DNA from: a bacterium
GTDB taxonomy: Bacteria > CAIJMQ01
Length of the DNA stretch: 33,105 nt
Direction: 5' to 3'
NCBI GenBank assembly: GCA_023135785.1
Contig: JAGLSL010000040.1
Coordinates: forward strand, 1 to 33,105
The notes beneath the pieces are model-generated. The model was not told the origin of the DNA. It searched no databases and saw only the letters and a program-made list of their open reading frames with translations. The position numbers and the translations under genes were made by a program. This document shows, piece by piece, positions 1 through 28,629 of the stretch; position 1 is the stretch's first letter; the number at the start of each line of letters is the position of its first letter.

Positions 1-63
1 ATAGAAATACTTTGTAGACAAACAATATATTTCAATGTATTTCCACTTATTTCAATCTATTTC
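1..63. repeat. Phased GAAATA/TATTTC inverted repeat, copy 1 (left arm cut by window edge)
   Basis: One GAAATA word remains of the left arm (position 4). The right arm has TATTTC at 28, 38, 48 and 58, an exact 10-bp spacing. The centre (11-27) contains TTTGTAGACAAACAA, itself a short inverted repeat. The right arm ends 28 nt before the tRNA-Leu gene. It is one of six related copies in the window; the others are near 3303, 7223, 15006, 17846 and 28459. Confidence 0.75.
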
Positions 64-3302: not shown

Positions 3303-3384
3303 GAAATACAATAGAAATATATCAAAATAAATTGTCTTTCTGCTACATATTTCTACTATATTTCCACATATATCCATGTATATC
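3303..3384. repeat. Phased GAAATA/TATTTC inverted repeat, copy 2
   Basis: GAAATA words are at 3303 and 3314. The facing words are TATTTC at 3348 and 3359 and TATATC at 3369 and 3379, so spacings are 11, 10 and 10. It fills most of the 123-nt gap between the mutase-like gene and lysC. Relative to lysC it is in the promoter/leader zone. Confidence 0.75.
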
Positions 3385-7150: not shown

Positions 7151-7222
7151 ATTTCCTCACTCCGTTCGGTCAGAAATCAGATGTCAGAATACAGAAAAAC
7201 ACATAATGAAAAAAATATAATA

Positions 7223-7297
7223 GATATACGTAGAAATATGATAGAAATACATTGTAGCGAAGCAATATATTTTAATTGCATTTCAATATTTTATTTC
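7223..7297. repeat. Phased GAAATA/TATTTC inverted repeat, copy 3
   Basis: The left arm has GATATA at 7223 and GAAATA at 7233 and 7244. The right arm is degenerate: TATTTT at 7268, CATTTC at 7279, TATTTC at 7292. The centre pairs CATTG with CAAT around TAGCGAAG. It lies 72 nt upstream of the PAP2 start. Confidence 0.65.
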
Positions 7298-7320
7298 TAT
7301 CTTTTTTTTTCTGTCCTCTG

Positions 7321-7398
7321 CGCCCAAAGCTGTTAATAAAATAAATTCAACTCTTTGGGCGTCCCCCCTGTTAGTTTTCAAAAGGAAAACTAGGGGGG
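7321..7398. repeat. Two adjacent hairpins (9-bp and about 14-bp stems)
   Basis: CGCCCAAAG (7321-7329) pairs perfectly with CTTTGGGCG (7353-7361). Two nucleotides on, CCCCCC-TGT-TAGTTTTC (7363-7379) pairs with GAAAACTA-GGGGGG (7385-7398), leaving TGT bulged. They follow the hom stop codon in minus-strand transcripts. No T-run follows either stem on the minus strand, so a simple intrinsic terminator is not supported; transcript end protection or a repeat element is possible. Confidence 0.7.
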
Positions 7399-7437
7399 AT
7401 ATACTTCTTCTGTCGTCTGTTCTCTGTCTTCTGTGTA

Positions 7438-15005: not shown

Positions 15006-15097
15006 GAAATACAGTGGATATGCATAGAAATACGGTAGATATATGTAGTAAAAAAACAATGTATTTCAATTTATTTCTATTTATTTCAATCTATTTC
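15006..15097. repeat. Phased GAAATA/TATTTC inverted repeat, copy 4 (best preserved)
   Basis: The left arm has GAAATA 15006, GATATG 15017, GAAATA 15027, GATATA 15038 (spacings 11, 10, 11). The right arm has TATTTC at 15062, 15072, 15082 and 15092 (10, 10, 10). It ends 22 nt before queE and directly abuts the queE -10 box. Confidence 0.85.
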
Positions 15098-17845: not shown

Positions 17846-17938
17846 GAAATACGGTGGATATACAATGGATATATATGGAAATACATAGTCGATGGACAAT
17901 TTATTTCAACATATTTCTATTTATTTCTATTGTATTTC
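17846..17938. repeat. Phased GAAATA/TATTTC inverted repeat, copy 5
   Basis: The left arm has GAAATA 17846, GATATA 17857, GATATA 17868, GAAATA 17878 (spacings 11, 11, 10). The right arm has TATTTC at 17902, 17912, 17922, 17933 (10, 10, 11). It lies between the promoter at 17724 and nrdR, so it should be transcribed in the 5' leader; it ends 22 nt before the nrdR ATG. Confidence 0.85.
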
Positions 17939-22765: not shown

Positions 22766-22838
22766 GACAGAAGACTATAGACCAAAGACCATAGACTAAA
22801 AAAAGGTCTTTAGTCTTCGGTCTTCAGTCTTTGGTCTT
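22766..22838. repeat. Heptad-phased inverted repeat (GAC / GTC words), 5 + 5 units
   Basis: GAC occurs at 22766, 22773, 22780, 22787 and 22794. GTC occurs at 22806, 22813, 22820, 22827 and 22834. Both arms are exactly 7-nt periodic and face each other across a short A-rich loop. The unit is roughly AGACCAA on the left and GTCTTTG on the right. It lies in the predicted 5' leader of the sensor kinase and ends 8 nt before its ATG. Confidence 0.85.
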
Positions 22839-22846
22839 ATATTAAT

Positions 22847-28458: not shown

Positions 28459-28629
28459 GAAATACGGTGGAAATACAATGGATATACAGTAGAAATACGT
28501 TGTTGGGGATTTGGAATTGAAAAATTACACACTACAAAACAAGGCAAAAAACTAAGAATAATGACAATGTATCTCAATATATTTCCATTTTATTTCGACT
28601 TATATCAAGATGTTGTTTCTATTTATTTC
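28459..28629. repeat. Phased GAAATA/TATTTC inverted repeat, copy 6 (long centre)
   Basis: The left arm has GAAATA 28459 and 28470, GATATA 28481, GAAATA 28492 (11, 11, 11). The right arm has TATCTC 28570, TATTTC 28580 and 28591, TATATC 28601, TGTTTC 28614, TATTTC 28624. The arms are separated by about 70 nt, longer than in other copies, as if something had been inserted in the centre. It lies 46 nt upstream of purA. Confidence 0.75.

Follow-up and report, generated by a model that had tools for sequence, protein, structure and literature searches.

IVP (S23p), a four-helix-bundle protein of family PF05635, is known from the intervening sequences (IVSs) of 23S rRNA genes, and short IVS forms without an open reading frame (ORF) also exist, for example in Salmonella. 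The function of the protein and of the IVSs, and their mobility, have been an open question for about three decades. Here, a family of dispersed hairpins is described whose arms are arrays of a 10-11 bp unit; six copies lie in a 33,105-base stretch of a bacterial genome (contig 40, 36% GC; hereafter the window, meaning the whole stretch that was analysed). In Coxiella, the 23S IVS forms a stem, carries an S23p ORF together with GACAGAT heptamers that vary in number, lies in sense orientation and is cut by RNase III, and an origin from a mobile element was proposed for it earlier (PMC4990558). PF05635 proteins also resemble Avd of diversity-generating retroelements (DGRs) (PMC10053308). The heptamer repeats GGGAATC and GGGGATT occur in Xanthomonas and Nostoc, with 70-75 inverted pairs per genome in Xanthomonas, and no S23p or IVP link is reported for these repeats (PMC4692102).

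Like the IVSs of Coxiella and Leptospira, the family described here has stem-forming complementary ends and, in its gene-bearing form, a PF05635 ORF in the loop; the hairpins also share with IVSs a sense orientation relative to the host transcript and a variable number of short direct repeats in the arm, as with GACAGAT in Coxiella. They differ in being dispersed in intergenic gaps, in many copies per genome, with 10-11 bp units, and they are not IVSs proper because the location in an rRNA gene fails. The 23S gene of G001, one of two same-genus (sister) species, G001 and G002, compared with the window's own genome (G000, a 1.34-Mb draft), contains no IVS insertion; its 2977 nt cover 2925 model positions, which leaves no room for one. 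Miniature inverted-repeat transposable elements are likewise short, ORF-less and dispersed, and they arise by internal deletion from an element that carries a gene, as may be true here, but in the present family the gene-bearing form has no transposase, target duplication was not found and the arms are direct-repeat arrays. REPIN/RAYT hairpins are similarly small, dispersed and intergenic, whereas the hairpins here show no association with the Y1 transposases present. The arms of IVP elements resemble the heptamer tracts of Xanthomonas and Nostoc, which form inverted pairs in Xanthomonas. Searches that covered the literature in part, several of them broad, turned up no account of dispersed IVP elements; relative to the literature searched, dispersed, transcript-oriented IVP elements and their ORF-less derivatives appear to be new, whereas IVSs in 23S rRNA are known.

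The hairpins look like small, recently moving elements, stripped-down relatives of IVP-gene elements. The reading preferred here, with a probability of roughly 0.7, is that they are ORF-less members of a family of mobile hairpin elements, the gene-bearing form of which encodes a PF05635 IVP between the same arms. An IVP gene between GAAATA/TATTTC arms is present in a same-genus genome: in G001, element L166 (1406-1900) comprises four left GAAATA words, then a 125-aa IVP ORF, then right TATTTC words, and the ORF scores 68.5 bits against PF05635 (cut-off 33.8) and 70.1 bits against TIGR02436 (cut-off 24). About nine more loci found by pattern, mostly in genomes with Bacteroidota names, have an IVP ORF between or beside the arms. 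The window copies themselves lack a PF05635 ORF, and one of them, at 28459, has a long loop that aligns to L166 at both ends: to the 5' end from GTTGTT through the ORF start, with differences that are nearly all transitions, and to the 3' end (CAAAAAA...AGAATAATRACAA). The inner part of the IVP gene matches this loop less well than the element ends do. Block shuffling gave equal matches in 69 of 5000 trials for the 5' end (p about 0.014) and in 195 of 5000 for the 3' end (p about 0.04), and these alignments moderately support an origin of the loop by internal deletion of an IVP-gene element.

Across bacteria, IVP genes generally lie within inverted arms of short direct repeats, and the unit length follows the IVP tree. 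An inverted-repeat score above 25 was found for 72% of 111 IVP genes and 5% of 118 control ORFs from the same stretches (p=6e-28), and 80 of the 111 were above the 95% point of swapped flanks. Because many genomes in this first set had been picked by the repeat, the test was redone on genomes not chosen in that way; inverted arms were present at 15/21 IVP genes in relatives and at 14/20 distinct IVP genes domain-wide (after removal of a duplicate listing from 15/21), against a null of 2.5%. Periodic arms occur in 69/80 IVP loci, with a unit that is usually 7 bp and otherwise 6, 8, 9, 10, 11 or 12 bp. On the IVP tree the arm period class requires 12 changes, against 22.6 when shuffled (0/200 as few), and the 10-11 class only 2 (0/500 shuffles); most members of that class belong to a single clade with full support, in which G001 is united with elements from Bacteroidota-named genomes. 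Among the matches listed in a pattern scan of public genomes, the 11-bp unit came mostly from Bacteroidota, the other sources including Omnitrophota, Elusimicrobia and Ratteibacteria. The sequence of the arm unit is common only to close IVP relatives. Coevolution of unit sequence with IVP was considered and rejected, as none was seen below 60% protein identity, and the clustering on the tree is limited to unit length.

The six window copies, reported in an initial annotation of the DNA as one design of inverted repeat, were verified by position and by a covariance model trained on 13 copies, which gave 58-92 bits for the five intact copies and 55 bits for the one cut by the contig end. An Rfam search returned tRNA as the only match. 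The copies and their associated features are:

1-63, plus strand: hairpin copy, left arm truncated by the contig end; tRNA-Leu (92-178) downstream
3303-3384, minus strand: hairpin copy between two minus-strand genes of the aspartate kinase and phosphoglycerate mutase families; the orthologous G001 site has no copy
7171-7203, no strand assigned: left heptamer-type arm around the 7223 copy, identified by reading
7223-7297, plus strand: hairpin copy nested between heptamer-type arms; not in G001
7404-7437, no strand assigned: right heptamer-type arm around the 7223 copy, identified by reading
15006-15097, plus strand: focal copy with 4+4 units; a queD-like and a queE-like gene lie on either side
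17846-17938, plus strand: hairpin copy flanked by nrdR and a deaminase-like gene; not in G001 or G002
28459-28606, plus strand: long-loop copy, with an extra TATTTC word pair running to about 28629; not in G001 or G002
28499-28569, plus strand: 71-nt loop of the 28459 copy, resembling both ends of the G001 IVP-gene element; putative internal-deletion relic

Further copies are plentiful in the window's own genome, where a census based on searches and fetched stretches gave 95 covariance-model matches over both strands, corresponding to about 60 places. Matches numbered 31 and 42 in the two same-genus species; none was found in four further genomes of the phylum, nor in an exact-match search of viral contigs for the hairpin. 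Each copy consists of a loop with an arm on either side, and an arm has about four units (one to eight words). The 10-11 bp word steps that had been described hold across 55 extracted copies: left units, GAWATA-C-R-R-T-R, are spaced by 10 bp 56 times and by 11 bp 89 times (mean 10.61), and right units, TATTTC plus 4-5 bases, by 10 bp 83 times and by 11 bp 25 times (mean 10.23), a spacing that shuffled sequences almost never produce (about 0). Thus neither outcome named in the initial annotation as refuting it, a lack of more copies or steps centred elsewhere than on 10-11 bp, was seen. The letters between the words do not vary freely as had been claimed, left linkers being mostly C-R-R-T-R. 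The arms are also not equivalent, nor mirror images in detail, a point missed by the initial annotation: GAAATA and GATATA stand at 127:116 on the left and TATTTC and TATATC at 172:29 on the right (Fisher p=4e-14), and the spacing of the two arms is unequal (p=1e-9). The usual short loop is GTAGT-N-GACAAT; about a dozen copies have long loops, and one loop of about 70 nt is common to 11/13.

Hairpin copies come and go between the sister species. The window is colinear with G001, with segment identities of 76-98%, mostly above 90%, and the site at 15006 is occupied in all three species, by 4+4 units in the window, 7+7 in G001 and 4+4 with changed inner units in G002. G001 lacks the copies at 3303, 7223, 17846 and 28459, and G002 also lacks those at 17846 and 28459. 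At ten further sites, for which the flanks were joined for the search and then aligned (L257 and L260 were left out), only the copy at L246 was common to both, so that 2/15 tested copies in total are common with G001. The hairpins at L243 and L251 are missing from both relatives, and gain in the window's lineage is therefore likely. A heptamer hairpin occupies L243 in G002, and in the window's genome the same heptamer hairpin encloses an 11-bp one; at L030, the window's genome has 11-bp hairpins where G001 has a heptamer hairpin. General insertion into the loops of other hairpins was rejected, as 6/55 copies lay above the 95% null point (2.75 expected); there are a few clear nested cases.

The copies are intergenic. 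Genes were called simply as the longest ORFs, and between genes of the same direction the copies lie at a median of 38 nt past the stop and 44 nt ahead of the next start. In such operon-like gaps they stand on the strand of the flanking genes, at 35:2 in the window's own genome, 8:2 in G001 and 5:1 in G002, giving a pooled 48:5 in the sense orientation with transcription inferred from gene order (p=7e-10). Since strand-biased mutation could create a bias after insertion, orientation was reassigned from single features, with ratios of 24:5 by loop, 31:5 by spacing and 37:5 by word type. The bias arises either through insertion in the direction of transcription or through loss of antisense copies. 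The co-orientation of IVP genes with their neighbours (61:6) was dropped as evidence, being uninformative because ordinary middle genes give 35:4.

The sense bias, the codirectional gaps and the short distances to the flanking genes would also be expected of domesticated mRNA hairpins, that is, host processing or stability elements in operon spacers whose orientation is kept by selection, and the joint shift of unit number in both arms at 15006 (4+4 against 7+7) points the same way. However, positions are little conserved between species, the corresponding sites in relatives carry other sequence or a different hairpin, and there is no G-U strand bias. This explanation is unlikely, albeit compatible with a mobile origin and not exclusive of it.

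It was also proposed in the initial annotation that the phasing of the words, near one turn of B-DNA, reflects curved DNA or a nucleoid, partition or silencing protein polymerising along one DNA face. The pattern is real and the phased A-tract vector shows a modest excess over shuffled sequences (7.3 against 5.9), but GATATA, half of the left words, is no A-tract, and relatives of identical design mostly have 7-bp units. With 7 bp as the commonest unit (range 6-12) and unit length distributed in accordance with the IVP tree, 10-11 bp is better regarded as a lineage-specific repeat length than as a requirement of B-DNA. The gain and loss of hairpins between sister species, their orientation tied to genes and the arms in common with a gene-bearing element also argue against curved sites, and the turnover and shared arms contradict the statement that a mobile palindrome would not need such phasing. 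The helical reading is probably wrong as the main story, and phased or curved sites are an improbable explanation of the family. A protein that recognises the repeat array is nevertheless plausible, for which IVP, not a nucleoid or partition protein, would be the natural candidate.

Movement as REPIN-like elements by a RAYT/Y1 transposase is very improbable and largely refuted. Y1_Tnp genes do exist (the window's genome has four, G002 two), but G001 carries hairpins without any Y1_Tnp match, and the hairpin is not found around the four Y1 genes, bar a pair of left words in L373 at a distance of about 1.2 kb. The Y1 gene of L375 (G000:C39) is instead flanked by a different palindrome, CCCACCTCCGAGGTGGG, and the two are probably a separate REP/RAYT pair. 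Mobility by a host reverse transcriptase of the DGR/Avd or group II intron type was likewise rejected, with no PF00078 (RVT_1) match in the incomplete drafts of G000, G001 and G002. Least credible is expansion of tandem repeats by slippage and hairpin repair with no mobile element, the IVP genes merely tolerating such sites: unit number is variable and heptamer tracts are widespread (PMC4692102), but copies occur at many unrelated loci with a common loop and a common asymmetry, and IVP genes lie between arms far more often than controls.

Several results weigh against the mobile IVP-related family. The own draft assembly has no IVP gene in 11-bp arms, its four IVP genes having other or no clear arms, and the four IVP-gene elements with 10-11-bp arms split 2:2 in orientation. 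The loop homology at 28459 is moderately significant for each end taken alone, and the long-loop consensus matches the 5' end of the element but its 3' end no better than shuffles do. No clean target duplication was found at the empty sites, where the flanks are AT-rich and diverged, nor were fixed ends seen. Below 60% protein identity, unit sequence and protein similarity are uncorrelated (Spearman -0.06), and recognition of the unit by IVP is therefore putative. Finally, G-U and A-C mismatches are near equal in number (190:176 in IVP arms, 165:143 in hairpins) and fold energy is alike on both strands (p=0.37), which gives no hint that an RNA stem is under selection; such selection, suggested by the best single copies, was rejected as unsupported on these counts and energies.

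In the model favoured here, that of a mobile family with an IVP-encoding form, long-loop copies would derive from internal deletion of the IVP gene and short-loop copies from further shortening, both with less firm support than the link to IVP genes. Elements may insert into transcribed spacers in sense orientation, or survive only there, with the arms acting as a folded hairpin, either as RNA or as a single strand displaced during transcription. An IVP oligomer could bind the repeated units and aid mobility in cis or in trans, and RNase III may cleave the stem, by analogy with 23S IVSs. A broader and more tentative proposal, which we hold to be somewhat doubtful, is that PF05635 (IVP/S23p) genes represent a bacteria-wide class of mobile hairpins with neither transposase nor reverse transcriptase, of which 23S IVSs would be a special case; its members would have repeat-array ends with unit length as a trait of the IVP lineage, insert in the sense direction into transcribed spacers and give rise to ORF-less hairpins amplified in trans.

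The data suggest that genes of the IVP family are the hallmark of a type of mobile DNA that is widespread but has been overlooked. The ORF-less relatives outside rRNA, with their empty sites in sister species and strong transcriptional orientation, bear on the long-standing IVP question, and offer two things that can be tested for the protein: its own repeat arms as substrate, and the gain of hairpins in transcribed spacers as behaviour. Some of the heptamer tandem repeats in bacterial genomes that so far lack an explanation may also be due to IVP elements.

Other repeats accompany these elements. A heptamer-armed hairpin (AGACTATAGACCAAAGACCATAGACT / GGTCTTTAGTCTTCGGTCTTCAGTC) lies at 22767-22839 of the window and is missing at the orthologous G001 site; elsewhere, IVP genes of the 7-bp type are enclosed by such arms. 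Within 7171-7437, a GCCCAAAG...CTTTGGGC palindrome and the 11-bp hairpin are both nested between the heptamer-type arms, and CAGAAGACAG-type tracts adjoin several other hairpin copies of the window's genome. In G014, contigs C2, C3, C7, C12 and C13 contain many partial PF05635 matches, which are divergent ORF pairs of about 100 aa each, a few hundred bases apart. Long GATATACGATA / GATACACGATA 11-bp arrays occur in L050, L070, L081 and L100 (Paludibacteraceae/Bacteroidales), where the stretch that was read shows no opposite arm. A palindrome resembling GTAGTTGCCGATTTATCGGCAACTAC recurs beside many hairpin copies (L018, L019, L244, L245, L247 and L266), and GC-rich CCCGCCTG...GCGGGC palindromes lie within or adjoin some hairpin arms (L008, L265 and L268).
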